Assembly (NCBI RefSeq): GCF_023148685.1
Contig: NZ_JAHXNL010000006.1
Span: forward strand, 102,917-166,916
DNA: 64,000 nt
Source: Georgenia sp. EYE_87
GTDB taxonomy: Bacteria > Actinomycetota > Actinomycetes > Actinomycetales > Actinomycetaceae
Direction: 5' to 3'
A program made the position numbers and the translations under genes. The first letter of the stretch is position 1. Every line of letters starts with the position of its first letter. Shown piece by piece: positions 1,192 through 17,283 of the stretch. A model generated the notes under the pieces. It ran no database searches and was not told the origin of the DNA. It was given only the letters and a program-made list of their open reading frames with translations.

Positions 1192-2505
1192 ATGAGAGTC
1201 GGGATCGTCGGTCTGGGCTACGTGGGCACCGTCACGGCCGCCTGCCTCGCGGAGAGCGGCCACACGGTCGTGGGTGTGGACGTCAGCACCATCAAGGTGG
1301 AGCAGATCAACAGCGGCGTGAGCCCGGTCAGCGAGCTCGGGCTGAGCGAGCTCGTCGAGAACAACGTCGACCGCGGAAGACTCAGCGCGACCACTGACGG
1401 CCCGGGGACGGTGGCCTCCTCGGACGTCATCCTCGTCACCGTCGGGACGCCGTCGGGCCGGAACGGCGACGTTCACCTCGACGACGTGTTCAAGGTCATC
1501 GGCAACATCGGTGCCGCGATGGCCGACGACGACACCTGGCGCCTCGTCCTCATCACCTCGACGGTCCCTCCCGGAACGGTGGAGCGCGACCTCGTGCCGC
1601 TGCTCGAGCAGACCTCCGGCAAGCGCGCCGGGCAGGACTTCGGGGTGGCGTTCTCTCCCGAGTTCCTGCGTGAGGGCACCGCCGTCGCCGACTTCCTCTC
1701 CCCTCCCAAGACGGTCGTCGGGGCCGACGACGACCGCTCGGCCAAGGTGGCGGCGTCCCTCTACCGGCCGTTCGCGGGCGACGTCACCCGCACGTCCGTC
1801 GCCGTCGCCGAGATGGTGAAGTTCTCCGACAACGCCTGGCACGCCCTGAAGGTCGCGTTCGCCAACGAGATCGGGCGCGTCGCGGAGGCCCACGGGGTCG
1901 ACAGCCACGCCGTGATGGCGATCTTCAAGTCCGACACCCGGCTGAACATCTCCAGCCGCTACCTCACCCCGGGGTTCGCCTTCGGCGGCTCGTGCCTGCC
2001 GAAGGACCTCCGCACGCTGACCTACCGCGCCCGCCGCAACGGGGCGAGCGTGCCCGTGCTCGAGTCGATCCTGCCGAGCAACCGGGCGCACCTCGACCTC
2101 GCGCTCGGGAAGATCGAGGCGGTCGGCGCGAAGCGGGTGGCCATCCTCGGGCTCGCCTTCAAGGCGGGCACCGACGACCTGCGGGAGAGCCCGTCGCTGG
2201 AGCTCGCCGAGCGCCTGCTCGGCAAGGGCTACGACGTGCGCATCCACGACGAGCACGTCAACCTCCGCAAGCTCATCGGCGCCAACCGCGCGTACGTCCT
2301 CAGCGTCCTGCCCCACATCGCCGAGCATCTCGACGACGACTTCGACCGGGTCACCGGCGAGGCAGAGGTGATCGTCGTGACGCAGAACAACCCCGCCTAC
2401 TCGCGGGTCGCCGACGAGTCCCGGGCCGAGCAGACCGTGCTCGACCTGTGCGGCGTCGCGCGCCCGCACAACGGGGCGACGAACTACGTGGGGCTGACGT
2501 GGTGA
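1192..2505 (+). CDS. Nucleotide-sugar dehydrogenase, GDP-mannose 6-dehydrogenase (AlgD) type
   Basis: NAD-dependent four-electron oxidation of a nucleotide sugar to the uronate, supplying GDP-mannuronate or a related precursor in the cytoplasm. The 437-aa length is typical. Seen: N-terminal Rossmann motif GLGYVGTVTAACLAESGH (about residues 6-23), FSPEFLREGTA in the substrate loop, and the catalytic Cys in GFAFGGSCLPKD (about residues 262-273). Family knowledge: the GSCLPKD form and the preceding RLNIS..YL.PGFAFGG resemble AlgD more than UDP-glucose dehydrogenases, which usually have FPKD. The start is ATG with GGGGGAG 8 nt upstream. It is the first gene of the plus-strand pair and overlaps the next gene by 4 nt. 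UDP-glucose or UDP-ManNAc as substrate cannot be excluded. Confidence 0.88.
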   Translation: MRVGIVGLGYVGTVTAACLAESGHTVVGVDVSTIKVEQINSGVSPVSELGLSELVENNVDRGRLSATTDGPGTVASSDVILVTVGTPSGRNGDVHLDDVFKVIGNIGAAMADDDTWRLVLITSTVPPGTVERDLVPLLEQTSGKRAGQDFGVAFSPEFLREGTAVADFLSPPKTVVGADDDRSAKVAASLYRPFAGDVTRTSVAVAEMVKFSDNAWHALKVAFANEIGRVAEAHGVDSHAVMAIFKSDTRLNISSRYLTPGFAFGGSCLPKDLRTLTYRARRNGASVPVLESILPSNRAHLDLALGKIEAVGAKRVAILGLAFKAGTDDLRESPSLELAERLLGKGYDVRIHDEHVNLRKLIGANRAYVLSVLPHIAEHLDDDFDRVTGEAEVIVVTQNNPAYSRVADESRAEQTVLDLCGVARPHNGATNYVGLTW

Positions 2506-3884
2506 GCCCGCGTCGTGGTCACGTGCCCGATCTGCTCCGGGTTCGCCGCCCGCGGCAGGACGCCGAGCTCCCTCCGCGCGTGCTGATCCTTGTGGAGAAC
2601 CTGGCGGTGCCGTTCGACAAGCGGGTGTGGCAGGAGGCGCGCACGCTCCGCGACGCCGGCTACGACGTCAACATCATCTGCCCGCGATCGGCGCAGCACC
2701 CGGCGGCCCACGAGGTGCTCGAGGGCGTGAACATCTACCGGTACGCGAGCCCCTTCGAGGCGCGGCGCGCGGCGGGGTACCTGCTCGAGTACCCGCTCGC
2801 GCTGGCCGCCCAGCTGGCCCTGGCGCTGAAGGTGCACCGGGCCGGGCGCCTGGACCTCATCCAGGCCTGCAACCCGCCGGACCTGCTCTTCCTGGTGGCC
2901 CAGCCCTTCCGGCTCCTCTCCGGCACCCGGTTCGTCTTCGACCACCACGACGCGTGCCCCGAGCTGATGATGGCCAAGGGTCGGCGGCCGGGCAGCTTCC
3001 TGGTCCGGCTCATGGAGCGCCTGGAGCGGTGGACGTTCTCGACTGCCGAGGTGTCGATCGCCACCAACGAGAGCTACCGGCGGATCGCCGTCGAGCGGGG
3101 CGGCATGGCGCCCGAGGACGTGTTCGTGGTCCGGTCCGCCCCGACCGTCAGCCGGTTCGCGTCCGCCCGGGAGGATCCGGCGGTGCGGCGCGGCAAACGT
3201 CATCTCGTCGCCTACGTCGGCGTGATGGGGATCCAGGAGGGCATCGACTACCTCCTCGACGCCGCGGACCTCCTCGTGAACCGGCGGGGACGGCGGGACA
3301 TCCAGTTCTCACTGGCCGGATCCGGGCCGGAGTTCGCCCGCCTCGTGGCCCGCGTCGACGAGCTCGGCCTGCAGGACAACGTGACGTTCCTCGGGCGGAT
3401 CAGCGACGAGGACCTCGCCACCCTCCTGGCCACGGCTGACGTGTGCGTAAACCCCGACGAGGCCAACGAGATGAACGACATCTCCACGATGAACAAGATC
3501 ATGGAGTACATGGCGCTCGGGAAGGCCGTCGTGCAGTTCGACCTGACGGAGGGCCGGGTCTCCGCCGGCGATTCGAGCCTGTACGCCCGCCCTAACGACG
3601 CGGGGTCCCTGGCCGACTGCATCGCCGAGCTGCTCGACGACCCCTGGCTGCGCGCCGACATGGGCGAGATCGGTCGTCACCGCTTCATGAGCCGGCTCTC
3701 GTGGGAGCACTCCGTCCCGCACCTGCTCGCCGCCTACGACCGGGCGTTGGGTCGTCCCGCCAGCCCCGTCCCTGTGCCTGCGCCGGTGCCGGCGATCCCG
3801 CTACGCATCGACCGACGGCAGCGGCAGCCCGACCTGCTGCACCAGCGGCCTCTCGCAGGGGTCGTCGAGGAGCGGAGCGCCTGA
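2502..3884 (+). CDS. GT4-family glycosyltransferase
   Basis: GT-B fold transferase of 460 aa that adds a sugar from an NDP-donor to a lipid-linked or growing glycan at the inner face of the membrane. Seen: N-terminal acceptor domain beginning PRVLILVENLAVPFDKRVW (about residue 25) and FDHHDACPELM. The C-terminal donor domain has YVGVMGIQEGIDYLL and the E(x7)E-like stretch EANEMNDISTMNKIMEYMA. The tail after about residue 415 is Pro-rich and probably disordered. The start is GTG at 2502, overlapping the upstream stop as GTGA, so translation is probably coupled to the dehydrogenase. The donor sugar cannot be read from sequence; GDP-mannuronate or GDP-mannose is an inference from the neighbour. 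Confidence 0.85.
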   Translation: MSPRRGHVPDLLRVRRPRQDAELPPRVLILVENLAVPFDKRVWQEARTLRDAGYDVNIICPRSAQHPAAHEVLEGVNIYRYASPFEARRAAGYLLEYPLALAAQLALALKVHRAGRLDLIQACNPPDLLFLVAQPFRLLSGTRFVFDHHDACPELMMAKGRRPGSFLVRLMERLERWTFSTAEVSIATNESYRRIAVERGGMAPEDVFVVRSAPTVSRFASAREDPAVRRGKRHLVAYVGVMGIQEGIDYLLDAADLLVNRRGRRDIQFSLAGSGPEFARLVARVDELGLQDNVTFLGRISDEDLATLLATADVCVNPDEANEMNDISTMNKIMEYMALGKAVVQFDLTEGRVSAGDSSLYARPNDAGSLADCIAELLDDPWLRADMGEIGRHRFMSRLSWEHSVPHLLAAYDRALGRPASPVPVPAPVPAIPLRIDRRQRQPDLLHQRPLAGVVEERSA

Positions 3885-3888
3885 GCGC

Positions 3889-5733
3889 CTACCCCTCGCG
3901 CGGCGGGGCGAGCCTGGCCTCGAGGGCCTCGCCCGCCCGCTGGAGCGGCGGCAGGGTCCACGGCCGGTAGCGGCGCCGCGGCTGCCCGTAGGTCATGACG
4001 CGGTCGAGGTAGACGATCGCGGCCGCCTCGAGCGGACGGAGATCGCCCAGGAGCGCGCGGGCCCGCCCCGCGGTCAGGCCGTCCGTGGTGCCGTCGACGA
4101 ACGCGAGCAGCGCCTCGGCGAACGTCCCGCGGTACGCGGCCCGGAACTCCTCGGCCGCGGCGAACACGCCGTCGAGCAGCAGCGGGTTGTTCGCCTCGAA
4201 CCGGTTCCAGTCGACGAGCCGCGGGCCGCCCGTGACGGGGAGCAGGACGTTGCCGGCGTGGAGGTCGCCATGGGTGGGCCCGACCGGGACGGTCGCGTCG
4301 GCGCACGTGGCCAGCACGTGCTCGCGCACCGCCCGGGCGCGGGCGCCGGCGGCGTCGGCCTCGCCCCGTGGCGAGACGAGCCGCGCCCAGAACACCGTCT
4401 CGCGCAGGAGCGCGTCCTCCCCGCCACCGACCTCCCGGAGGACCTCCTGGAGCGCCGCCCGTGCGGCGTGCAGGTCGGCGGACGGACGAGGCGTCACCAC
4501 CGGGTACACGGCGTAGGCCACCGCTCCCCAGCGCTCCACGCGCGCGCCGTCCAGCGTGAAGGCACCCAGCGCCGTGCCGGCCGCCTGGTGCGTCTTGCGC
4601 ACCTCGGCGGCGACCGCCTCCTGCTGCTCCGCGGAGAGCGGCACCTTCAGGAAGTCCCGGGCCCCGTGCACCGCCACCCGGGCGTCGCTCAGCGCCATCG
4701 TCACCGGCGCGGGCTGCTCGCTCGTGCCGGCCAGCACCTCGCCGAGGGTCCGTGGCCTGGCTCCCGCGGCTGTCCGGCGCGCCAGGAGGAAGTAGTCGCG
4801 CGCCAGCCAGGGGGCGCCACCCGCCGCCGCCGCCAGCCGCACCGCCCGTCGCCTCGGGGACGACGGCTGGAGGTGCGCCCGCAGGTGCTCCCTGAGTCGC
4901 TCCTGGGGCACCAACCACCGCCACGCCTCCCGCGTGGGCAGGGCGACGATCACCCGTGCCGTGCGGAGCCCCGCCGCTCGCAGGGCCGTGTCGCCCCACG
5001 GCGACCGGAGGGCGGCCCACAGCTCCCGGGCACGCGTCCGCCGCCGGGCCGCGAGACCGCGTGGACCGGCAAGGTCCGACAGGGGGTTGTGCGTGCGAAC
5101 CACCGCTACGCCGTCGGCCGCGAGCACCCGGCGCACCTCGGTCAGCACGCCACCGAGGACCGCGTCCGCGTCCGAACGATCGCCGAGGAGGCTGCGGACC
5201 TCGGCGGTGTCGACGAAGACCGCGTCGAAGGTCTCGTCGGGCCACGGCAGCGGGCGACCGAGGTCGAGGTGCAGCGCGCGGCCCGCGGGCGCGTCGTTCA
5301 TCAGCGCCTCGAGACGCAGCCGGGCGTAGACCCAGTCGGCGCTGGTCACCTCGGCGCCGAAGGTGCTCAGGGCACGGGCGAGGGTGCTCCACCCGGTGCC
5401 GAGGTCGAGGACGGCCGAGCCGGGCGTGAGCGGCACCAGCGTCGCGGCGGCCCCGCCGGCCGGGTGGAGCAGCCGGCGCAGGACGTCGCCCGGCCACGGC
5501 TCGTCGCCGTCGACCATCTCCGCGACGAGGGCGTCCGGGCCGGCGGCGCGCAGCGCGGCGTCCCGCACGTACGCGGGGACGTCGTGCCAGGGCTCGTCCC
5601 CCTCGGCGAGACGGAGGATGCCCACCTCGTCACCCCACCGGCGCCCGCACGCCGGGCACACGGGGTCCCGGGCCGCCGGGCTCCACCGGCCGCCGCACGG
5701 GCACCGCAGGGCGGGCGCGTCCTTGTCGGCCAT
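3889..5733 (-). CDS. Zinc ribbon-methyltransferase-APH-like kinase fusion
   Basis: The 614-aa protein has three recognisable parts. A CxC...CxxC zinc ribbon (Cys11, 13, 26, 29) comes first. A class I SAM methyltransferase follows, with motif I VLDLGTGWST at 108-117 and an acidic strand AVFVD at about 171-175. An aminoglycoside-phosphotransferase-like kinase domain forms the C-terminal half, with catalytic HGDLHAGN at 488-495 and metal-binding LVDW at 506-509. All key kinase residues are present. It sits in a polysaccharide locus. Family knowledge: E. coli WbdD joins methyltransferase and kinase modules to cap O-polysaccharide and set chain length. A similar capping or decorating role here is inference. 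The leaderless -10 TACTGT lies 8 nt before the ATG. It is transcribed against the GT4 gene, with stops 4 nt apart. Confidence 0.75.
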   Translation of the reverse strand: MADKDAPALRCPCGGRWSPAARDPVCPACGRRWGDEVGILRLAEGDEPWHDVPAYVRDAALRAAGPDALVAEMVDGDEPWPGDVLRRLLHPAGGAAATLVPLTPGSAVLDLGTGWSTLARALSTFGAEVTSADWVYARLRLEALMNDAPAGRALHLDLGRPLPWPDETFDAVFVDTAEVRSLLGDRSDADAVLGGVLTEVRRVLAADGVAVVRTHNPLSDLAGPRGLAARRRTRARELWAALRSPWGDTALRAAGLRTARVIVALPTREAWRWLVPQERLREHLRAHLQPSSPRRRAVRLAAAAGGAPWLARDYFLLARRTAAGARPRTLGEVLAGTSEQPAPVTMALSDARVAVHGARDFLKVPLSAEQQEAVAAEVRKTHQAAGTALGAFTLDGARVERWGAVAYAVYPVVTPRPSADLHAARAALQEVLREVGGGEDALLRETVFWARLVSPRGEADAAGARARAVREHVLATCADATVPVGPTHGDLHAGNVLLPVTGGPRLVDWNRFEANNPLLLDGVFAAAEEFRAAYRGTFAEALLAFVDGTTDGLTAGRARALLGDLRPLEAAAIVYLDRVMTYGQPRRRYRPWTLPPLQRAGEALEARLAPPREG

Positions 5734-5807: not shown

Positions 5808-6728
5808 TCACCCGCGCGCCGGCCTCCAGGTGCCCAGCTCGACGTTGGAGTCGTCCCAGACCACGTTCGGCCCGAGGTTCGCGGCGGCGCCGTAGCGGCT
5901 GTCGGTCTGGAACGCGTTGTCGCGGAACTCGCAGGCCGCGCCCTCAGTCCCGCTGCCGCCGCCGTTGACCGTGTAGTTGCCGCCGTTCAGCAGGTTGCCC
6001 TCGACGAGGCAGTTCGAGACCGGCCCGGAGTCCTCACCGAACATGAAGGCGGCGTTGCCGTAGCTGCCGGTCTTCGGGTTGAACGCCTGCAGGTTGTTGC
6101 CGCGCACCACGATGTTGTCACCCTTCATGACCTGGATGACGTCGGTGTGGTTGTCGCCCCGCTGGACGACGTCGTGAATGTAGGAGTCCTCGATCGTGAC
6201 ATCGTCGCCCGCGACCCGCGGACCCTCGGCGACGTTGTAGATCCGCACGCGGCGCAGCGTGTAGCCGTTGAAGGCGACGGCCGGGTTCGCGCGGCCCTGC
6301 CCGTCGATCTCGCTGTCCTCCATGAGGAAGTTGTCGCCCTCCACGCGGATGGCGATCTTGCCCGAGGTCATCACGACGCGGGAGTTGCGGATGACGACGT
6401 CGTCGGCCTCGACGACCACGTGGCCGAAGATCTCGAGACCGTCGATCACGGTCCCGTCCTCGGTGATCTTGAGCTTCTCGCTCCGCTCCAGGCTCGTTCC
6501 CGCGGGCACGCCGGTGCTCGTCTCGTCGGGGAAGTCGGTCAGCTGCGGCGGCGGGGGCGTCGGGGACGGCGTCGGCGACGGCGCGGCCGTGGGGGGCTCG
6601 GTGGGCGCGGGCTCCGGCGGCTCGTCGGAGCACCCGACCACCAGGGAGAGGACGGCCGCGACGACGGCCAGGAGAGTCACCCACGCGCGCGGCCGTCTGC
6701 GGGGCGGGGCGCTCGACGTTGCGGACAT
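5808..6728 (-). CDS. Right-handed beta-helix lipoprotein
   Basis: Predicted surface lipoprotein of 306 aa. Seen: basic N-terminus, hydrophobic segment (about residues 15-32) ending in the lipobox LVVGC, and a Pro/Thr-rich linker of about 30 residues. The rest is a parallel beta-helix with repeating strands such as VVIRNSRVV, FLMEDSEID, VTIEDSYIHD and IVVRGNNL, plus the polar patch DNHTDVIQ. Family knowledge: such folds include polysaccharide lyases and uronate C5-epimerases. Next to an AlgD-type dehydrogenase this makes a uronate lyase or epimerase a fair guess, but I see no diagnostic catalytic motif. The start is ATG 6728 with GGAG upstream. Reading further upstream removes the signal peptide from the N-terminus. 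Confidence 0.72.
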   Translation of the reverse strand: MSATSSAPPRRRPRAWVTLLAVVAAVLSLVVGCSDEPPEPAPTEPPTAAPSPTPSPTPPPPQLTDFPDETSTGVPAGTSLERSEKLKITEDGTVIDGLEIFGHVVVEADDVVIRNSRVVMTSGKIAIRVEGDNFLMEDSEIDGQGRANPAVAFNGYTLRRVRIYNVAEGPRVAGDDVTIEDSYIHDVVQRGDNHTDVIQVMKGDNIVVRGNNLQAFNPKTGSYGNAAFMFGEDSGPVSNCLVEGNLLNGGNYTVNGGGSGTEGAACEFRDNAFQTDSRYGAAANLGPNVVWDDSNVELGTWRPARG

Positions 6729-6872
6729 GAGGCTCCACTCGGACGTTGTTCCTGATCGTCCAGCGTAGGGTCGGGCGGGCCGTCCTGACCTCGGTTCGGG
6801 GTGCTCCCCGGCCGGCGGCCGGCGCCGGTGCGCGCGGACCGCCGATCGCCTGTCCGGGCGGGCGGGCGTGGC

Positions 6873-6878
6873 TACCCT
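6873..6878 (+). promoter_or_regulatory. -10 element, leaderless GT2 gene
   Basis: TACCCT with a 7-nt spacer to the ATG at 6886. The GGAGG that touches the ATG is too close to act as a normal SD, so a leaderless start is favoured over the in-frame GTG at 6868. Confidence 0.5.
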
Positions 6879-6885
6879 TCGGAGG

Positions 6886-7749
6886 ATGAGCCACACCGTC
6901 GTGAGCGTCGTCATCCCGGCGCTGAACGCCGCCGGGACGCTCCCGGCGCAGCTGGAGGCGCTCGCCCGCCAGGACGTCGACGTGCCGTGGGAGGTCGTCG
7001 TCGTCGACAACGGCTCGACCGACGGCACGCTCGAGGTCTGCCGGTCCTACGAGGGCCGGGTGCCCGGGCTGCGCACGATCGCGTGCGCCCGGCCCGGGAC
7101 CAGCGCCGCCCGCAACGCCGGGGCGGCGGCGTCGTCGTCCGAGCTGCTGCTCTTCTGCGACGCGGACGACGAGGTCGCGCCGGGCTGGGTGCGCGCGATG
7201 GTGGCCGCGCTGCGCACCTCCGACGCCGTGGGCGGGGCCATCGAGAACGACAAGCTCACGACCGGCCAGGCGCCGTACATGCCGCGGCACCCGGACCACC
7301 TGCCGGTGGTGGCCGGGTTCCTGCCGCGGGCGATCACCGCGAACCTGGGCGTGCGCCGCCAGGTCTTCGACGACGTCGGCGGGTTCGCCCCGGACTACGA
7401 CTACGGGGGGCCGGACACGGAGTTCTGCTGGCGGCTCCAGCTGGCCGGCCACCGGCTCGCCTACGCGCCGGACGCGGTGGTGCACTACCGGCACCGGCAC
7501 ACCCTGCGCTCGGTGGCGGTCAAGGCGTTCCGCACCGGGATCTCGCGCGGTCGGCTCTACCGCGACTACGGCCCCCGCGGGATGCCGCGCCCCCGGCTGG
7601 CGGGCGTGGCGGTGCGCTGGGCCGGTCTCGTGCTGGGCGCCCCGGCCGCCGCGGTGTCCCCGGCGCGGCGGTGGCGCTGGGTGGAGCAGGCGGCCGGCGC
7701 GGCCGGACGGGTGCGGGGCAGCTGGCGCTTCCGGGTGCTGTACCTCTGA
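6886..7749 (+). CDS. GT2-family glycosyltransferase
   Basis: GT-A fold inverting transferase of 287 aa, cytoplasmic or membrane-peripheral. Seen: VVSVVIPALNAAGTLPAQ at the N-terminus, VVVDNGSTDGT, the donor and metal motif LLFCDADDE (DxD-like), and a conserved late segment GGPDTEFCWRLQLAGHRLAYAPDAVVHYR where the ED/TEF pair forms the acceptor site. The C-terminus (about residues 205-260) carries one or two amphipathic or hydrophobic stretches. It runs opposite to its neighbours within the polysaccharide locus and has its own leaderless promoter. Sugar specificity is unknown. Confidence 0.85.
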   Translation: MSHTVVSVVIPALNAAGTLPAQLEALARQDVDVPWEVVVVDNGSTDGTLEVCRSYEGRVPGLRTIACARPGTSAARNAGAAASSSELLLFCDADDEVAPGWVRAMVAALRTSDAVGGAIENDKLTTGQAPYMPRHPDHLPVVAGFLPRAITANLGVRRQVFDDVGGFAPDYDYGGPDTEFCWRLQLAGHRLAYAPDAVVHYRHRHTLRSVAVKAFRTGISRGRLYRDYGPRGMPRPRLAGVAVRWAGLVLGAPAAAVSPARRWRWVEQAAGAAGRVRGSWRFRVLYL

Positions 7750-7770: not shown

Positions 7771-9669
7771 TCAGGGGCGCTCCCCCGCCTGCCAGCCGTG
7801 GCGCCACTGCGCCCGACGACGCCAGGCGTCCCGCCACGCGTCCACCCCCATGGCGGGGCGGCCGCCGGGGCGGCGCAGCCCGGCGGCGAGCGCCCGCAGC
7901 CCGGTGCCGGCCACGAGCAGCTCGCCCGCGACCCGGCCCCACGGCCGCGGCAGGTTCTTGCGGTACGTCGTCACCCGCCCGCGCAGCACCAGGGGCAGCC
8001 GGTTCGACCCGGCCGACGACGCGCCGACCCGGTGGCGGAACCGCGCCTCCGGGCACACGCGCGGTGCCCAGCCGGAGCGGCGGGCGCGCAGGCTCAGGTC
8101 CGCGTCCTCGCCGTAGAGGAAGAAGTCGCGGTCGAACCCGTCCAGGGCGTCCCACACGTGCCGCTCCACCAGCATCAGCCCGCCGCTGACCACGGCGACC
8201 TCCCGCGCCTCGCCCCGCCAGCGGTCGGAGGACTCGGGGTCGAGCAGCCGGGATCCGGGGAAGACGCTCGACAGGCCCGTCGCGAAGCAGACGGCGGACC
8301 ACAGCGTCGGCCGGCCGAACCAGGACCGCGCGTCGGTGCCGCCCCGGTCGGTCACCGAGCGGCCGCCGACGATGCCCGCCACCGGGTGCCGCTCCGCACA
8401 GGCGAGCAGCGCCGCCACCGCGCCGGGGTCCACCACGGCGTCGGGGTTGACGAACAGCAGCCGGCGGGCGTCCGAGCGCGCGGCGCCCGCGTGGCAGCCC
8501 GCCGCGAAGCCGTCGTTGACGTCGCGCAGCACGAGCTCCAGCCGGTCGGACACGCCGTCCACCGCCGCGACGAGGTCGTCGCCCGAGCCGTTGTCGACCA
8601 CGATGATGCGCGCCCCCGGGACGCGGGTCAGCGCGGCGTCCAGGGCCTCGAGGCACTCGCGCACGTAGCCGGCGCTGCGGTAGGTCAGCACGACGACGTC
8701 GACCGGGGCGGCCGGGACGGACGGCGGGCGCGAGGCGGCCGGCGGGCGCGAGGCGGCCGGCGAGCCCGAGGTGACGGGCGGGGCTGACGCCGCCGGCGCC
8801 GGCGGGGGCGACGGCGACGCGCCTCCACGCCGGTCGTCCCGGCCCCAGGTGACCGTGCCGCGGCGCACCGCGATGCCCGCGGAGACCTTGGCGACGGCGG
8901 TCACCACGCTGAAGGTGGCGAGAGCGGGCAACAACGCCGGACGCGCCAGGACCGCGCGGGCGAGACCGGCGATCCGCTCGGACCGGCCGGCGTCGTGCGC
9001 CGGGCCGTCCACCAGCTGGTTGGCGGCGTAGACCCGGCGGCGGACCTTGAGCACCTCGCGCACGCGGCCGGGCGGGCGCACCACGACCGGCTCCGGCACG
9101 ATCACCGCCCGCTCGCGGCGCACCCGGGTGGTGGCGAAGCGGTCGTCGGCGATGCCCTCCGGGAAGGCGCCGAAGGTGTCGCGCGCCTCCCGGCCGAGCG
9201 TGTAGGCGCCCCGGCCGGCGAGCTGCTCCTGCACCCAGGGCAGGGACGCCCAGCCCTCGTAGTAGGCCCGGGCGGCCGGGCCGGCGGACGCGGTGTCGAG
9301 CACGCGGCGGGGTACGGCCACGGCCGCCCCGTCCCGCACGGCCGCGATCATCGCCCGGGCGGTCGCCGTGGGGCAGCGCACGTCGGCGTCGAGGTAGATG
9401 CGCGGGAAGCCCGGGGCGATCTCCTCCGCGGCGCGGATGGCGGCGATCTTGGAGGCCTCCGCGAGCGCCAGCACGGTGACGTCGTGCCCGAGCGCGGCCG
9501 CCGCCTCCCTGGCCCGGTCCGCCGTGGCGTCCGTGCACCCGTTGCAGGCGACGACCACGTCGAGCTCACCCGGGTCGGCGTCCGCGAGCAGGGCGCGGAG
9601 CCCGTCCGCGACGACCGCCTCCTCGTTGTGGGCCGGGACGATGACGGCGGGTCTCGGCGGGCCGCTCAT
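7771..9669 (-). CDS. Tandem GT2-GT2 glycosyltransferase fusion
   Basis: A 632-aa protein with two complete GT2 domains. Domain 1 (about residues 5-285) starts PAVIVPAHNEEAVVADGL, has ACNGCTDATAD and the DxD-like YLDADVRCP, and ends with a hydrophobic stretch. A Pro/Ala/Ser-rich linker of about 45 residues contains a repeated AASRPP unit. Domain 2 (about 330-610) has VDVVVLTYRSAGYVRECL, VDNGSGDD, LFVNPDAVVDPG and GFDRDFFLYGEDADLSLRAR, like rhamnosyltransferases. Two domains in one chain suggest that two successive sugars are added. The start is ATG 9669, overlapping the upstream stop by 4 nt (ATGA), so it is co-translated with the 758-aa multidomain gene. Domain 1 belongs to a branch also found in transferases acting on polyprenyl-linked sugars; specificity is unknown. 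Confidence 0.85.
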   Translation of the reverse strand: MSGPPRPAVIVPAHNEEAVVADGLRALLADADPGELDVVVACNGCTDATADRAREAAAALGHDVTVLALAEASKIAAIRAAEEIAPGFPRIYLDADVRCPTATARAMIAAVRDGAAVAVPRRVLDTASAGPAARAYYEGWASLPWVQEQLAGRGAYTLGREARDTFGAFPEGIADDRFATTRVRRERAVIVPEPVVVRPPGRVREVLKVRRRVYAANQLVDGPAHDAGRSERIAGLARAVLARPALLPALATFSVVTAVAKVSAGIAVRRGTVTWGRDDRRGGASPSPPPAPAASAPPVTSGSPAASRPPAASRPPSVPAAPVDVVVLTYRSAGYVRECLEALDAALTRVPGARIIVVDNGSGDDLVAAVDGVSDRLELVLRDVNDGFAAGCHAGAARSDARRLLFVNPDAVVDPGAVAALLACAERHPVAGIVGGRSVTDRGGTDARSWFGRPTLWSAVCFATGLSSVFPGSRLLDPESSDRWRGEAREVAVVSGGLMLVERHVWDALDGFDRDFFLYGEDADLSLRARRSGWAPRVCPEARFRHRVGASSAGSNRLPLVLRGRVTTYRKNLPRPWGRVAGELLVAGTGLRALAAGLRRPGGRPAMGVDAWRDAWRRRAQWRHGWQAGERP

Positions 9670-11942
9670 CGCGTGCCGCCGACCGTGCTGGGGACGCGGC
9701 TGCGCGCCCAGGCGCGGTACGCCGTCGCCGCGGTGCGCCGGCCCCTGCGCGCCGCCCGGAGCCCGACCCGCCCGACGCGGCGGACGGGCTCGCTCGAGCC
9801 GGTGACCGTCCGGGTCAGTCTGAACGCGCCCCGTCGCAGATGCTGCAGCCAGGCCGGGTCGTGGAGGAGCGCCTCCATCGGCAGGCCGACGTACGGGAGC
9901 CAGCGCAGGTCGTAGGAGAGGTCGTCGACGAACGGCAGATCGCCGTCGAAGTCCTCCGGCACGCCCACGAACCCGTACAGGTGCGTGAACTCGGGCGGCT
10001 CGCCGTCGTACCGGTGGAGGAACTCGAGGTCGATCAGCCGCAGCCCGTCCGGGTCGAGGAGGAAGTTCTGCGGCTTGGCGTCGATGAGGTCGTACCCGCG
10101 GGCGTGGACGCGCCGCAGGACGTCGACCATCCCGCGCGCGGCCCGCAGGGGGACCAGGCGGCCGCCGGGTCGGTCCCCGATGTTCAGCCGGTTCGGGTGG
10201 AAGCTCGTGAGGAGCCAGTTCGGGCCGGTCGCGAGCAGCGCGGGCACGGGCACGTGGGGGGCGAGCTCGCGCAGCCCGTGCAGCTCGCGCTCCTGGTGCG
10301 CCCGCGCCGGGCGGGCGAAGGTCTTGCGGACGGCGAGCCCGCCGTCGTGCTCGACGACCTCCACCTTGGCGCGGCGGCCGCGGCTCAGCACGGCGACGAC
10401 CGGGGCGTCCGTGGCGTACTCCTCGCGCCGGCGGCGGACCTCGGCCCTGAGCGCCTCGGCCTCGTCCGGGACCGCCAGCTCGACGTACTCCCACGCCTCC
10501 GGCTCGTTGTCCGAGGAGTGCACGGGGTTGAAGCGCTCGCCGTCGACCACCCGGGCGGCGACGAGGTCACGGATCCGCGTCTTCGCCAGGTACACGTCGG
10601 TGTTGGACAGCCACGGGTACTGCTCGCGCAGCGCGGGACCCGGTCGCCGGGGGCCGTGGTGGAGCACGACGACGGCGACGGCGGGCCCGCCTCCCGAGCG
10701 CGGGAACGGGCCGCGGCTCCAGTTGCCGCCACGCATGGACTCGGCGCACCGCCGGCGCGCGTCGTCGTCGAGCACCCGCTCGAGCACGATCTCGAAGCCG
10801 AGGGTGCCGAGCACCCGGCGCACGTCGTCCATGGTCAGGACGTCCAGGGTCCGCTCGCGCACGAGGAACACCGACGGCTCCGGGACCTCGGCGGCGTCCA
10901 GGTCCGGCGGGCGGATCCACGGGTTGGTCGCGGCGAGGCGCCGCAGGGTGTCCGGCGGCGGCTGCCAGCCCACGGTCGTGAGGTACTCGTCCACGCCCTC
11001 GAGGGTCGGCTCCAGCGCCACCCCGAGGCGGCCGGCGAGGTCCTCGAGCACCGCGGTGTAGTCGTGCTCGGGGTCGGGCTCGCGCCAGGACGTGCCCCGC
11101 GAGGCCAGTCCCGAGCTCGGGCCCTTGTGGTACACGGCGTGGTAGGCGAGCGAGTGCAGGTGGTCGAGGGGGGCGGGCACGCGGCAGCCGCTCGGGTGCA
11201 GCACCGCACGGCCGAGGAGCTGGCGGGCCAGCGCGGGCGGGTAGTAGGCCATGCCGTGGTAGTCCGTCCCGGTCTGGCCGGACTCGCTGTACAGGTCCAC
11301 CGGGATGGTCCCGGGCTCCTCGTCGAGGAGGGCCTCCACGGCGGCCAGGTCCTCGTCCGCGACCAGCAGGTCCAGGTCCTCCCCCGGCTCGAGCTCCGGC
11401 AGGTTCTCGAACCACCGCAGGGCGGCGTACCGCACGCCGCGCTCCTGGAGCCGCTCGACGAGCCCCGGCACGCCCCAGTACGGGGAGAGATAGCGGCGCG
11501 CCCGGCGCCGGCGGGCGCCGGCGAGCTCGAGGACGTCGAACTGCCGCCCGCCGCACGTGAACCGGCCGCGCGGGGTGGCCCGGCCGCGCAGCCGCGGCAG
11601 CAGCTCCGCCAGCCGCGCCTCCACGGCGCGGAGACCGGCCCGCCGCTCCACGGCGACCAGACGGGCGTGGCTCAGGTCCCGGAAGGTCCAGAGGTAGGGC
11701 GCGAGGTCGGCCCGCAGGATGACGACGTCCGCGCTGCTCCGCGCCACGAGGGCGGGCTCGAGGGCGACGAACCGGCCCGCGAGCTCCCCGGCCCGGGCCC
11801 GGACGGCGTCGAGCCTGGCGGGCGGGACGAGCCCGAGGTAGCGCTCACGGCCCGCGGCGGCGAGCGCGGCGGCGACGTCGGCGCCGTCGGCGCCGACATC
11901 GATGACCCGGCTGCCGGGCTCCAGCAGCGTGGCGAGCTCCAC
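9666..11942 (-). CDS. Four-module protein: methyltransferase-like, nucleotidyltransferase-like, NDK-like, kinase-like
   Basis: A 758-aa protein (773 if read from the GTG at 11987). From the N-terminus, with numbering from GTG 11942: a Rossmann-type region with SRVIDVGADG near residue 11, like a degenerate SAM methyltransferase; a nucleotidyltransferase-like part around GEDLDLLVADEDL (residues 187-199, D-x-D); a stretch at about 355-490 resembling nucleoside-diphosphate-kinase folds, with NTDVYLAKTRIRDLV and FNPVHSSDNEPEAWEY where NDKs have HGSDS; and a protein-kinase/APH-like C-terminal domain with DAKPQNFLL (621-629) and IDLEF (637-641). The NDK catalytic His is not evident. It is cotranscribed with the GT2-GT2 gene (4-nt overlap). 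TACAGT 7 nt before GTG 11942 favours that start. I know no characterised protein of this layout. The domain calls are by eye and function is unknown; modification of the polysaccharide or its carrier is inference. Confidence 0.7.
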   Translation of the reverse strand: MELATLLEPGSRVIDVGADGADVAAALAAAGRERYLGLVPPARLDAVRARAGELAGRFVALEPALVARSSADVVILRADLAPYLWTFRDLSHARLVAVERRAGLRAVEARLAELLPRLRGRATPRGRFTCGGRQFDVLELAGARRRRARRYLSPYWGVPGLVERLQERGVRYAALRWFENLPELEPGEDLDLLVADEDLAAVEALLDEEPGTIPVDLYSESGQTGTDYHGMAYYPPALARQLLGRAVLHPSGCRVPAPLDHLHSLAYHAVYHKGPSSGLASRGTSWREPDPEHDYTAVLEDLAGRLGVALEPTLEGVDEYLTTVGWQPPPDTLRRLAATNPWIRPPDLDAAEVPEPSVFLVRERTLDVLTMDDVRRVLGTLGFEIVLERVLDDDARRRCAESMRGGNWSRGPFPRSGGGPAVAVVVLHHGPRRPGPALREQYPWLSNTDVYLAKTRIRDLVAARVVDGERFNPVHSSDNEPEAWEYVELAVPDEAEALRAEVRRRREEYATDAPVVAVLSRGRRAKVEVVEHDGGLAVRKTFARPARAHQERELHGLRELAPHVPVPALLATGPNWLLTSFHPNRLNIGDRPGGRLVPLRAARGMVDVLRRVHARGYDLIDAKPQNFLLDPDGLRLIDLEFLHRYDGEPPEFTHLYGFVGVPEDFDGDLPFVDDLSYDLRWLPYVGLPMEALLHDPAWLQHLRRGAFRLTRTVTGSSEPVRRVGRVGLRAARRGRRTAATAYRAWARSRVPSTVGGTR

Positions 11943-12150: not shown

Positions 12151-13971
12151 GTGCCGTCGAAAGCAGATGTGCCCCCGCCGAGAGGGCGCTCCAACCCGAT
12201 CACGGTCGCCCGCAAGGCCCGCGCGGCCTGGCGGCGCCTCGCGCCGTTCTTCCAGACCTCCCGGCTGAAGATGTTCCTCCTCGTGGCCGGGTCCGTGCTC
12301 GCCGGTGTGGCCGAGGCGGCGCTGCTCGCGGTCGTCGGCGCCATCGCCGGCGCGCTCAGCAACGGCGTGACCGACGTGACGCTGAAGCTCGGGCCGGTGG
12401 GCCTGAGCGAGCCGCTCGACGTCATGTTCGCCGCCGGCGTGGGGCTGGCGGTCGTGCGCGGGGCCCTGCAGATGATGCTGGCCTACCTGCCGGCGAGCAT
12501 GTCGGCCCACGCCGTGGCGAACCTGCGCCGCCTCCTCTTCGACTCCTTCACCCGGGCCGCCTGGCCGGTCAAGGCGTCGGAGCGCGACGGGCAGTTCCAG
12601 TCGCTGATGACCACGCACGTCAACGCGACGAGCTACGCGATCATCACCCTCGGCACCGGCATCTCCGCCGCCCTGGTGTTCGTCACCCTGCTGGTCTCCG
12701 CGTTCGTGCTGAGCCTGCCCGCCGCCGTGATGCTCAGCGTCGTCTCCACCGGGATCTTCCTGATGCTGCGACCGGTGTCCAGGCGCCTGCGCCGGCACGC
12801 CGCCGCGCTCAGCACGGAGAACATCGAGTACTCCAAGGGCGTCCAGGAGGTCGTCCTGATGGCGGAGGAGACGGAGGTCTTCGGCGCCTCCCCCTCGTAC
12901 CTCGACGCCTTCCACCACCGGATCGACGGGATCCGCCGGCCGATGCTGCGGACCCGCTTCCTCGCCCAGGGCGTGCCGGCGCTGTACCAGAGCATCGCGC
13001 TGCTGCTCCTCGTCCTCGCCCTCGGCGTCATCGCCCTGGTCGGCATGGGAGAGATCGCCAGCCTCGCCGCCGTCGTGCTGATCCTCCTGCGCGCGCTGAC
13101 CTACGGGCAGCAGGTGCAGACGGCGGTGACCGGCCTGGACGAGCGCGTGCCCTTCATGCACCACCTCGCCGACGCCGTCGAGCGCTACACCGCCAACCCC
13201 CGCCAGGACGGACCCCGCCACCTGCCCGAGGTCGTCGAACGCATCGGCATGCGAGGCGTGCGCTTCGGCTACGGCCCGGACACGGAGGTCCTCAAGGGCC
13301 TGACGTTCTCGGTGGGGCGGGGCGAGGCCATCGGCATCGCGGGCCCGTCAGGCGCCGGCAAGTCCTCGCTGGTCCAGCTGCTGCTGCGCCTGCGCATCCC
13401 CACCGCCGGCGCCCTCGAGGTCAACGGCACCGACGCCCGCGAGTTCCGGCGCGACGAGTGGCAGCGACGCGTCGCGTACGTGCCGCAGACGCCGCAGCTC
13501 GTCTGGGGCACCGTGGCGGACAACATCCGGTTCTACCGGCCTCACCTCACGCAGGAGGACATCGAATCGGCCGCGCGCCGGGCCCAGATCCACGACGAGA
13601 TCATGAGCTGGGAGAACGGCTACGACACGGTGGTGGGCCAGCGGGCCGCGGCGGTCTCGGGCGGCCAGCGCCAGCGGATCTGCCTGGCCCGGGCGCTCGC
13701 CGACCGGCCCGAGATCCTCGTCCTCGACGAGCCCACGAGCGCGCTCGACGTGCGCTCGGAGTCCCTGGTGAAGAACTCGCTGCACGAGCTCAAGGGCTCC
13801 ATCACGCTGTTCATGGTGGGGCACCGGCTCTCGACGCTGTCCTTCTGCGACCGCATCATGGTGGTGGCCGACGGCCGGCTCGAGGCGTTCGCGCCCCCGC
13901 ACGAGCTGATGGCGACGAACAGCTTCTATCGCGAGGTCACCGAGCTCACCCGCCAGCAGAGCGGGAGCTGA
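12151..13971 (+). CDS. ABC transporter, fused permease and ATPase (exporter half-transporter)
   Basis: A 606-aa type IV (MsbA/PglK-like) exporter half, expected to work as a homodimer that flips or exports a glycolipid, using ATP. Seen: about six membrane segments in residues 40-320. The nucleotide-binding domain runs from about 355, with Walker A GPSGAGKSS, Q-loop VPQTPQLVWG, signature VSGGQRQR, Walker B ILVLDEP and H-loop VGHRLS. The start is GTG 12151 with AAGGGAG 5 nt upstream; longer in-frame readings have no membrane or SD support. It is monocistronic within the polysaccharide locus. No separate Wzx flippase is present, so this protein may move the lipid-linked saccharide. Substrate is inference. 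Confidence 0.88.
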   Translation: MPSKADVPPPRGRSNPITVARKARAAWRRLAPFFQTSRLKMFLLVAGSVLAGVAEAALLAVVGAIAGALSNGVTDVTLKLGPVGLSEPLDVMFAAGVGLAVVRGALQMMLAYLPASMSAHAVANLRRLLFDSFTRAAWPVKASERDGQFQSLMTTHVNATSYAIITLGTGISAALVFVTLLVSAFVLSLPAAVMLSVVSTGIFLMLRPVSRRLRRHAAALSTENIEYSKGVQEVVLMAEETEVFGASPSYLDAFHHRIDGIRRPMLRTRFLAQGVPALYQSIALLLLVLALGVIALVGMGEIASLAAVVLILLRALTYGQQVQTAVTGLDERVPFMHHLADAVERYTANPRQDGPRHLPEVVERIGMRGVRFGYGPDTEVLKGLTFSVGRGEAIGIAGPSGAGKSSLVQLLLRLRIPTAGALEVNGTDAREFRRDEWQRRVAYVPQTPQLVWGTVADNIRFYRPHLTQEDIESAARRAQIHDEIMSWENGYDTVVGQRAAAVSGGQRQRICLARALADRPEILVLDEPTSALDVRSESLVKNSLHELKGSITLFMVGHRLSTLSFCDRIMVVADGRLEAFAPPHELMATNSFYREVTELTRQQSGS

Positions 13972-14034: not shown

Positions 14035-14880
14035 CTACCAGCTCCCGCGCCCCCGGACGAGCTTCTCCAGGCGCCTGCGCGCGCCGCGCCGCTTCGCGCG
14101 CCAGCCGGAGTACTCGCGCAGGTCCAGCGACGCCCTCTGTACGGCGACGGCGGACTCGTGCTCCTGGCGCGCCCAGTCGGCCACCGAGGTGATCCCGAGC
14201 GCCTGGGCCGTGAGCGGCATGCGTCGCCGGAAGTCCTCGTCGTCCTTGAACAGGGTGTTGGGCGACCGAGGGTCGTCCAGGTTGTCCTCGCGGATGAACG
14301 GGTACGCCCAGCCGTTCACGGCGCCGCGGCGCGCGAGGTCGAGGCAGTACTGGGTGAACGACTGGCCCTGCCGCAGCGGGCCCTGCCGGGTCACCATCTC
14401 CCGCGGCAGGAGGTAGCCGCTGCCCTGGACCCAGTGGTTGCGCAGCAGCTGGTGGCCGCCGTTGAACGTGGCGATCTTCTTCCCGGCGACGTCGGGGAGG
14501 AAGTCCTCCTCCATGAACCGCCAGCAGCCCACCGCGCCGAACTCCGGGTTGGCGTCGTGCGCGTCGCGCAGCCGCTCGATCCACCCGTGCGCCGGCAGGC
14601 AGTCGTCGTCCACCTTGGAGACGTAGGTCGCGTCGGACTCGGTCCACAGCCAGTTCGTCGGGGCGGTGAGCCTGACGTTCTCCCGGCTGTGGTGGAACCG
14701 GTGCACGCGGGGGTCCTCCGCCAGCTCGGACGTGACGGCGAGCGTCTCCTCGTCGTCGCCGTTGTGCCAGAGCCAGACCCGGGTCCGCTCGTCGCACGTG
14801 GACAGCAGGTGCGGCAAGGAGACCCGGACGTGCTGCGGGCTGTTGTAGGTGATCATCAGAACGTCGGTCAGCGCAGCCAT
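14035..14880 (-). CDS. GT2-like glycosyltransferase
   Basis: A 281-aa GT-A fold protein. Seen: N-terminal DVLMITYNSPQHVRVSL, then WLWHNGDDEETLAV (nucleotide-binding region), the metal-binding acidic motif YVSKVDDDCLPAHGW, and a C-terminal half with WVQGSGYLLPREMV and LFKDDEDFRRRMPL. The basic tail KRRGARRRLEKLVRGRG may contact membrane lipids. The start is ATG 14880 with GGGAGGA 6-8 nt upstream. It is divergent from the Wzz-like gene, with 179 bp between them. Specificity is unknown. Confidence 0.75.
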   Translation of the reverse strand: MAALTDVLMITYNSPQHVRVSLPHLLSTCDERTRVWLWHNGDDEETLAVTSELAEDPRVHRFHHSRENVRLTAPTNWLWTESDATYVSKVDDDCLPAHGWIERLRDAHDANPEFGAVGCWRFMEEDFLPDVAGKKIATFNGGHQLLRNHWVQGSGYLLPREMVTRQGPLRQGQSFTQYCLDLARRGAVNGWAYPFIREDNLDDPRSPNTLFKDDEDFRRRMPLTAQALGITSVADWARQEHESAVAVQRASLDLREYSGWRAKRRGARRRLEKLVRGRGSW

Positions 14881-15059
14881 GACGGGTCCTCCCTCGACGG
14901 GGGCGTCAGCCCCTCGCATGCGTGGGAACGTACCGGACCCGGCCGCCCAGATCCGTCGATTGCGCCTCCTACCAGAAGACCGCGACTGTTCCCCGGCCGA
15001 AACGCCGGTGCGACACCAGAAGAACACCTAGCCTTCCAGCACGACCCCTGGAGGACTTC

Positions 15060-15914
15060 ATGGATCTGTTCACGATTCTTGGTGCGACCTTCCGCCGCTG
15101 GTACGTGACGGTCCCCGTCATGCTGCTCGCCGGGATCCTCGCCTACCAGTCGTACCAGTCGGTGCCGGCGGTGTACTCGTCCTCCGTGTCGGTGACCGTC
15201 CTCGCGCCCGTGGCACCGCCTCCCCCGCCCCCGGACCCGGTCACCGGGGAGGTCATCGAGCCGTACGAGGCCAACCCGTACAGCGGCCCGAACCTCGCGG
15301 CCGCCGTGCTGGCGCGCAACCTCAACAGCGCCTCCTTCGAGGACACGCTGGGGCTCGACCCGGAGCGCAACCAGACTATCGAGGCCGACCCGTCGCGCAG
15401 CGACCCGATCATCCAGGTGATCGCGACGGCGGAGTCCCCCCAGGCCGTGGTCGCCATCCTCGAGGAGGTGACGGTCCGGGCGGCGACGATCCTCGACGCC
15501 TTCCAGGCGGAGGCAGGCGCCACCGACGGCGCCCGCTACAACCTGGCGCCCGCGGTGCCGACCGACGTGGTCGAGGACGTCACCCCGAGCCGCTTCCGCA
15601 CTGCCGGCGCCATCGTCGTCATCGGGTTCGGCGTCGCGGCCGCTGTGGCCACGCTGCTCGACATGGTCCTCGAACGGCGGCGCACCGCCCGGGCACCCGT
15701 CGCGGCCCAGCCCGGGCCGGCCCCCGCCCCCGGGCCTGCCGCCCCAGCCTCCGGGCCGGCCCCCGCCCCCGGGCCCGGCGACCAGCCGGCGTCGGCGACC
15801 GCGACCCCGGTGCCCGCACCGAAGCTGACCATGACCGGCCGGCTGACACCGGGGCCGGGTACGGCGAACGACCCGGTGGGCGCACGGAGCCATGAGTCGT
15901 CCAGGGCTCGGTGA
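15060..15914 (+). CDS. Wzz-like polysaccharide chain-length / co-polymerase protein
   Basis: A 284-aa membrane protein of the Wzz/capsule co-polymerase type, which sets polymer length together with a Wzy polymerase. Seen: a short cytoplasmic N-terminus (MDLFTILGATFRRW), TM1 at about residues 15-32, an extracytoplasmic domain of about 145 residues, and TM2 at about 181-200 (AGAIVVIGFGVAAAVATLL). A cytoplasmic Pro/Ala/Gly-rich tail of about 80 residues is encoded partly by a duplicated segment (about 15713-15780). There is no Walker motif, so the tyrosine-kinase half is absent. The start is ATG 15060 with GGAGG 5 nt upstream. It overlaps the next gene by 23 nt. Confidence 0.78.
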   Translation: MDLFTILGATFRRWYVTVPVMLLAGILAYQSYQSVPAVYSSSVSVTVLAPVAPPPPPPDPVTGEVIEPYEANPYSGPNLAAAVLARNLNSASFEDTLGLDPERNQTIEADPSRSDPIIQVIATAESPQAVVAILEEVTVRAATILDAFQAEAGATDGARYNLAPAVPTDVVEDVTPSRFRTAGAIVVIGFGVAAAVATLLDMVLERRRTARAPVAAQPGPAPAPGPAAPASGPAPAPGPGDQPASATATPVPAPKLTMTGRLTPGPGTANDPVGARSHESSRAR

Positions 15915-17283
15915 GCTGACCCGCGCGCCCGGCCCGGGCGCCTGGGGCGACCCTCGCCCCGGCCCGTGGCTGGCGCTGTCCTTCCTCCCGCTGGTGACGC
16001 TGGCGATCCCCTCGGCGCTCGTGCTGGCCGGCCCGCTCGCGTCCAACGGCTGGCCCGCCCGCCTGCTCATCTTCGCGATCGCCGGCGCGGTCCTCCTGGG
16101 CTGGCTCCGACGTCCGGCCGCCGGCCGCCGCACCTCGCCGGCCGAGGCCGGCTGCTGGATCCTGCTGCTCGGCGTGATGGTCTCCTTCGCCGCCGCCCAG
16201 CTGCGGCCGCTCACCGGGGTCGAGTTCGCCGGGTCGGTCCGCGTCGCGCTCGTGATCTTCCCGCTCATCGTCGTGGCGCTGGGCATCGCGTCCCTGGGCG
16301 ACGCGGTCAAGGCGGACATGCTGTTGACGTACCTACTGGCCGGCGCGGTGCTCAGCACCCTGGTCGCGCTGGCGCAGTTCGTCGTGCCGTTCGACCTGGC
16401 CGAGCTCATCCGCCCGCCGGGGTTCGTCGCCCGCGAGGTCGGCGGGATGGGCGACCGCGGCGGGTTCATCCGCGTCAAGGGAACCGCCACCCACCCCATC
16501 GAGTACGGCGTCATCTCCGGCGCTCTGACCCCCGTGGCGCTGCACTTCGCCCGCTTCGGCAGCACGGCCCACCGCCGTCGCCTCGCCCTCCTCGTCGCCG
16601 GCCTCCTGGCCATGGGCCTGCTGCTGTCGGTGACGCGCTCGGCGGTGCTCACGCTCGTGGTGGCGATCCTCGTCTACGCCGTGAACCTCACGCTGCGCGA
16701 GCGGCTCAACCTCCTCGTCGTCGGCCTCGGCGCGCTCGTCCTGGTCCGCGCCACGCTGCCGGGACTCCTGGGCACCATCACCGGCTTCTTCCTCGGCGCG
16801 GCCGAGGACGACAGCGTCACCGCCCGGCTCGCGGACTACCCGCTCGTCGACAGGTACTTCGCCGAGGCGCCCTGGATCGGGCGAGGGCTCGGCACGTTCC
16901 TGCCGGACGAGTACGTCCTCCTCGACAACCAGTACCTGATGTCGCTCGTGGAGGGCGGTCTCGTGCTCGTCGTGGCGATCATCGCGTTCTTCGCGTTGAC
17001 GCTGGCGAGCGCCCGGGGCGCGGTCCTGCGGGCCGCCTCGCCCTCCGACGCCTCGCGGGCCCAGGCGGTCACCGCCTCGATCGCCTCCATCGCCGTGTCC
17101 GGGCTGCTGTTCGACCTGTTCAGCTTCGCCCAGGTCACGGTGGTGCTGTTCCTGCTCGTCGGCATCGCGGGCGTGCTGTGGCACGACGGGCGCGAGAACG
17201 GCCTGGCCATCCCCGAGCCGATCCAACGGTTCCGCACCCCGCCCGCCGAGCAGCGCCGCGCCGCCGAGGTCGCCCGGCGGTAG
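15892..17283 (+). CDS. O-antigen polymerase/ligase-like membrane protein
   Basis: A 463-aa polytopic membrane protein with about 11-12 hydrophobic segments and a large loop of about 70 residues (roughly 165-235) containing the conserved-type patch GFIRVKGTATHPIEYGVISG. A second short region (DRYFAEAPWIGRGLGTFLPDEYVLLDNQ, in parts) matches the usual WaaL/Wzy loop near a late TM. Role by family: polymerising or transferring undecaprenyl-linked repeat units outside the membrane. The start ATG lies inside the Wzz-like gene (23-nt overlap), so the two are made together. This is the last gene of the locus; ligase versus polymerase cannot be settled from sequence. Confidence 0.8.
   Translation: MSRPGLGELTRAPGPGAWGDPRPGPWLALSFLPLVTLAIPSALVLAGPLASNGWPARLLIFAIAGAVLLGWLRRPAAGRRTSPAEAGCWILLLGVMVSFAAAQLRPLTGVEFAGSVRVALVIFPLIVVALGIASLGDAVKADMLLTYLLAGAVLSTLVALAQFVVPFDLAELIRPPGFVAREVGGMGDRGGFIRVKGTATHPIEYGVISGALTPVALHFARFGSTAHRRRLALLVAGLLAMGLLLSVTRSAVLTLVVAILVYAVNLTLRERLNLLVVGLGALVLVRATLPGLLGTITGFFLGAAEDDSVTARLADYPLVDRYFAEAPWIGRGLGTFLPDEYVLLDNQYLMSLVEGGLVLVVAIIAFFALTLASARGAVLRAASPSDASRAQAVTASIASIAVSGLLFDLFSFAQVTVVLFLLVGIAGVLWHDGRENGLAIPEPIQRFRTPPAEQRRAAEVARR

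Follow-up and report, generated by a model that had tools for sequence, protein, structure and literature searches.

A four-module protein of Georgenia with nucleotidyltransferase-, nucleoside diphosphate kinase- and kinase-like regions and a proposed place in surface-polysaccharide assembly

A 64,000-nucleotide stretch of DNA from Georgenia sp. EYE_87 (hereafter the window; contig NZ_JAHXNL010000006.1, positions 102,917 to 166,916) encodes a protein of four consecutive modules, termed M (methyltransferase-like), N (nucleotidyltransferase), D (nucleoside diphosphate kinase, NDK-like) and K (kinase), which we assign to surface-polysaccharide assembly. This assignment is safer than the specific mechanism; the reading preferred here, and held tentatively, makes the protein a tailoring enzyme of surface glycans, with N and D perhaps acting together and K perhaps phosphorylating the same glycan. 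NDK-fold domains are known mainly as nucleotide housekeepers; in this family, whose genes mostly lie in surface-glycan neighbourhoods, the fold is joined to a nucleotidyltransferase. Features of the window are collected in Table 1.

Table 1. Positions of the four-module gene, its modules and sites, and neighbouring genes in the window
Feature	Positions	Strand	Basis or remark
Four-module protein, M-N-D-K	9666..11942	-	758 aa plus stop; start picked from conserved N terminus
Module M, residues 1-139	11526..11942	-	methyltransferase-like strand order in predicted model; site motifs apparently not conserved
Module N, residues 140-345	10908..11525	-	nucleotidyltransferase related to PF14907; hhalign
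Candidate metal-binding Asp triad D189, D191 (GEDLD), D216 (VDLYS)	11295..11378	-	29/29 aligned rows
Module D, residues 350-505	10428..10895	-	nucleoside diphosphate kinase fold; structure search with predicted model
NPVHSSD (N472, H475, D478), at place of NDK N-x-x-H-G-S-D	10509..10529	-	N, H, D in 29/29 rows; aligned to NDK histidine
Module K, residues 506-705	9828..10427	-	kinase; K540, E553, D621, N626, D638
Double GT2 glycosyltransferase	7771..9669	-	ATGA overlap with four-module gene
Companion, methyltransferase match and kinase motif THGDLHAGN	3889..5733	-	Pfam, neighbour comparison
ABC exporter	12151..13971	+	divergent from four-module gene; Pfam
GT2 glycosyltransferase	14035..15027	-	Pfam
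Wzy/O-antigen-ligase-like protein	15892..17283	+	PF04932
UDP-glucose/GDP-mannose dehydrogenase gene and group 1 glycosyltransferase gene	1192..3884	+	Pfam

The minus-strand reading frame opens with the GTG at 11942 and closes with a stop codon at 9666, and the four motifs quoted in the earlier note were all found in this single frame and in the order claimed there. The end at 11942 was retained in preference to 11987, since this GTG lines up with the N termini of relatives (MELTSLL and similar). A chance frame was rejected, as both sequence identity and the module borders hold up in different phyla. Its own genome (4.35 Mb) carries one copy of the gene (100% match). A PDB search with the single sequence gave 8 rows, all apolipoprotein at E 0.38 or weaker, and a search of a viral structure library listed mostly kinases. 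No family match was obtained in phage and plasmid collections, none of 38 pattern stretches in viral contigs was confirmed, and nothing in the collections searched pointed to an origin in phages or plasmids. The earlier note knew of no characterised protein with the four-module layout, and no paper on it appeared in searches of an open-licence library, a scope limited enough to be weak evidence of absence.

The overlapping downstream gene contains two GT2 stretches, which fits the co-translation with a double glycosyltransferase proposed earlier. The second kinase-like protein said to lie nearby was also found: the companion lies 3.9 kb off, has an N-terminal methyltransferase match and carries THGDLHAGN, which we take to be an APH-type kinase motif. 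Relatives of the companion also turn up in the vicinity of five further family loci, of which L017 and L018 are near-identical to each other. Elsewhere in the window, the stretch 5808-6680 (minus strand) has a lipoprotein-like start and repeats that by eye resemble a right-handed beta helix, and the longer frame 5808-7028 had no match in Pfam; the stretch 15060-15914 resembles by eye a Wzz-type chain-length protein, and the frame 14922-15914 had no match in Pfam.

Over the window and 30 further loci, the next downstream gene on the same strand was a GT2 glycosyltransferase in 15/31 and a Polysacc_synt_3 (Wzx-type) gene in 6/31, as identified by Pfam or by a BLAST cluster with a Pfam-scanned member. 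The remaining 10 comprised L016, where this gene had no Pfam match, L019 (Kiritimatiellota), where it matched Glyphos_transf at 22.5 bits against a cut-off of 22.1, and 8 where the following gene was on the other strand, the contig ended or no clear assignment could be made. Neighbour genes were called by a simple script, not a trained gene finder, and 98 of 105 listed neighbour proteins, from 18 of the 30 loci, were scanned with Pfam; among the best 25 of 99 families, GT2 was the most frequent (14), with group 1 transferases at 6, Polysacc_synt_3 at 4, Wzy_C at 3, phytase and sulfotransferase families at 2 each, and others besides. A phytase gene lies upstream at L020. At both planctomycete loci whose protein lacks module K, a gene fuses a Kdo/WaaP kinase to GT2 (L027:4898-6511 and L035:10978-12693). 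At L016 a 385-aa protein (10325-11482) that overlaps the end of the family gene, and has no Pfam match, looks kinase-like by eye.

The family was traced by scanning genome contigs with two short peptide patterns, which gave at least 30 loci, at least three of them the same records as the same-genus genomes. The protein was present in 4 of 8 other genomes of the genus (identity 71, 60, 56 and 56%), in 0/28 other genomes of the family and in 1/22 of the order, and its nearest named relative is from a Georgenia. Relatives occur sparsely in seven phyla: Actinomycetota, Pseudomonadota, Verrucomicrobiota, Kiritimatiellota, Gemmatimonadota, Myxococcota and Planctomycetota. In the phylum search at least 1 of 396 genomes was positive (its own), a lower bound because only five candidates were scored per genome among the matches listed. 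One alphaproteobacterial family gave 4/151 genomes, one match being partial at a contig end and one being the centre itself. The main alignment (A2) has 29 rows and excludes L036, which runs off its contig within N, and L037; alignments A4-A6 hold 28 of these rows, L018 being left out as near-identical to L017.

Three of the four modules named in the earlier note were supported independently, K and D by predicted-structure search and N by profile-profile comparison; the methyltransferase-like module stood by strand order and weak profile matches. Kinases and NDKs took up the structure lists, so that no listed row covered N or M. For module N, hhalign against PF14907 gave a score of 46.3 (probability 88.6, E 2.6e-6, over 174 columns), which 0 of 60 column shuffles reached (highest 23.0). 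The comparison set held 18 of the first 20 loci, L079 and L089 being dropped for want of the motif, from 25 loci fetched. The window protein alone scored 15.6 bits against PF14907 in Pfam, below the cut-off of 31.2, and a module N profile found no meaningful relative among PDB sequences. D189, D191 and D216 presumably hold the metal, as in Pol beta-type transferases, and what we take to be the usual G-S motif of those enzymes is missing. Kinase and nucleotidyltransferase in one chain, together with the Glyphos_transf-matching gene downstream at L019, would fit a soluble precursor pathway, with K as the sugar or alcohol kinase, N turning the phosphate into an NDP-linked donor and D recycling the nucleotide, the product feeding the neighbouring transferases. 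Such a pathway is nevertheless unlikely: N resembles PF14907, which to our knowledge is not among the families that make NDP-sugars or CDP-alcohols, some relatives have no K, and the Glyphos_transf match occurs at one locus only and barely above its cut-off.

In NDKs the active-site histidine has an asparagine three residues before it, and this feature is present in module D (N472 and H475 when aligned with NDKs; 10 of 11 NDK loci were used, a narrow set). Invariant in all 29 rows are R362, K454, R458, N472, H475, S476 and D478; the lysine of the NDK KPD motif is, on our reading, an arginine in module D. At the sequence level the window protein had no match to PF00334 at E up to 0.5, short of the cut-off, and 3 of 29 members matched it (best E 0.00081). 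The profile-profile match of module D to NDKs reached a probability of only 51%, and its profile against PDB sequences listed 21 rows, all at E 0.055 or weaker, of which 18 carry the name NDK. NDK-fold domains may be non-enzymatic. An ordinary ndk gene is present elsewhere in the genome.

A predicted-structure search placed module K in the protein-kinase-like fold, with Rio1 as the top match and Rio2, Bud32/PRPK and other protein kinases among the best. Each of the 27 rows that have the module keeps D621, and 25 keep N626 and D638. PF06293 was matched weakly by 4/29 members (best E 0.12), and the window protein did not match it at E 0.5. After K the predicted model has one helix only (717-748), of low to middling confidence. 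The best NCBIfam matches were kinase regions of lanthipeptide synthetases; a RiPP kinase-lyase was rejected, the likeness to the class IV lanthionine synthetase LanL (NF038150) being confined to the kinase region, at 33.3 bits against an unreached cut-off of 650. These NCBIfam and structural matches would suit a regulator that modifies or senses nucleotides through N and D and whose kinase targets proteins of the pathway; we consider this improbable, as fold likeness is silent on substrate class and a glycosyltransferase or flippase gene adjoins in 21/31 loci.

The strand and helix order of module M in the predicted model fits the Rossmann-type fold of a class I SAM methyltransferase, which ends in an antiparallel hairpin, and Methyltransf_23 was weakly matched by 2/29 members (best E 0.0053). 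Its alignment (A7; 15 rows chosen from 21 candidates, after removal of L018 and of five that lack the module) has 2 invariant columns of 154, the SAM-site residues appear not to be conserved, and there is no conserved acid after strand 2; the module M profile found no meaningful relative among PDB sequences. Counts for M columns in A2 include noise, because rows without the module (L024, L025, L030, L033 and L034, for example) carry upstream, probably non-coding residues at the left end. M is probably not an active methyltransferase.

The modules proved separable in relatives, so a single known domain was rejected, and the site residues are kept across the family alignment; either a single fold or loss of the motifs would have told against the earlier note. 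The layout M-N-D-K occurs in near relatives of the window and also in L019 and in L020. Geodermatophilaceae, Phyllobacteriaceae and others have N-D-K, the planctomycetes L027 and L035 have M-N-D, and three paralogues (L066, L068 and L070) in the L020 genome (Gemmatimonadota) have D-K. In Pelagibacterium (L037:7776-9822) a stand-alone N gene with a whole N site lies beside a gene with a lost N site and a whole D site, and no module K was found at that locus. Module K is absent or decayed in 4/29 rows, missing in L027 and L035 and decayed in L020 and L023, and in all four the D site is intact. In the D-K paralogues, which lack N, R362, RGG, K454, R458, N472, S476 and D478 are changed in 3/3 and His475 in 2/3 (L070 keeps a histidine at the aligned place), whereas K540, E553, D621, N626, D638 and E640 are kept in 3/3. 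In the L020 genome the four-module copy has a decayed kinase and the paralogues have intact kinase residues. Since the D site is intact without K and ruined where N is missing, we infer from sequence that it goes with N and not with K; the three paralogues are from one genome and may represent one event. At L067 (1187-2019) broken pieces of a related nucleotidyltransferase were seen (LRNFEELP, later LLYHA), with weak likeness upstream to part of the NDK-like module. A second family with another module order is possible there from sequence; a one-piece search for the LRNFEELP stretch found no relative among plasmids and 141 further genomes.

The distribution of K bears on another reading, that of a chain-end capper like WbdD, whose kinase would phosphorylate the non-reducing glycan end, stop polymerisation and license export, with M, N and D binding or positioning the glycan non-catalytically. 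According to PMC3482155, WbdD joins a methyltransferase to a kinase and determines how long the chains of an ABC-exported O antigen become. The divergent ABC exporter and the methyltransferase-kinase companion in the window would agree with such a role. It is left doubtful by the loss or decay of the kinase in 4/29 rows while the N and D site residues are invariant, by the apparent lack of conserved SAM motifs in M, and by the Wzx-type gene next door in 6/31 loci.

On the preferred tailoring reading, the protein would act in the cytoplasm as part of a surface-polysaccharide pathway, with N and D joined in one catalytic unit, a coupling proposed mainly because the D site follows N. D would relay phosphate through His475, making or keeping the right NTP; N would use that NTP, with metal held by its three aspartates, to pass a nucleotidyl group to its acceptor (glycan, lipid-linked sugar or small precursor). 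Like WbdD, K would put phosphate on a sugar hydroxyl, here of that same glycan; its product could be the acceptor phosphate for N or a separate mark. M may serve as a structural or binding domain, and the neighbouring glycosyltransferase or flippase would then extend or export the product. Several observations weigh against this reading: the 10/31 loci with no recognised GT2 or flippase gene next, the phytase gene at L020, the histidine retained in L070 and the single-genome origin of the paralogues, the arginine at the KPD lysine, the 51% profile match to NDKs, the missing G-S motif of N and the existence of non-enzymatic NDK-fold domains. The phosphate-based modification of the polymer or its lipid carrier by an undescribed route, suggested in the earlier note, fits most gene neighbourhoods; the function itself we infer. 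A bolder version, which we hold with considerable doubt, would make the protein a one-chain assembly line, its kinase, nucleotidyltransferase and NDK-type phosphohistidine relay placing a nucleotide- or phosphodiester-linked group on a surface glycan, with the NDK fold serving the glycan route and not nucleotide housekeeping. We know of no surface polysaccharide with such a kinase-nucleotidyltransferase-phosphohistidine route. If N and D do work jointly on the glycan route, they would perform a phosphate or nucleotide tailoring step unnamed by the family models searched. Loss of K, decay of D in the absence of N, and the division of N and D between two genes together offer a natural set of proteins for probing the coupling.

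Among known systems, module D shares with nucleoside diphosphate kinases (PF00334) the fold, N-x-x-H-S-S-D and an arginine of the IRG region, and differs in its own RGGNW..GP...GG.P motif. Module N shares the DxD and the late P..H region with NTP_transf_5 (PF14907), a family of uncharacterised nucleotidyltransferases, but has Arg-Trp-Phe in place of Lys-Gly and GED ahead of the second Asp. The D..N..D-x-E kinase motif of module K is common to WaaP/Kdo LPS-core kinases (PF06293) and RIO/Bud32 kinases, from which K differs in being fused to N and D. WbdD of E. coli O9a, a chain terminator, likewise has N-terminal methyltransferase-type and protein-kinase-fold domains in one chain within a surface-glycan cluster. 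Its domain set consists of methyltransferase, kinase and C-terminal predicted coiled coils and nothing else, whereas the protein described here carries N and D between M and K, and its module M appears to be without conserved SAM motifs.
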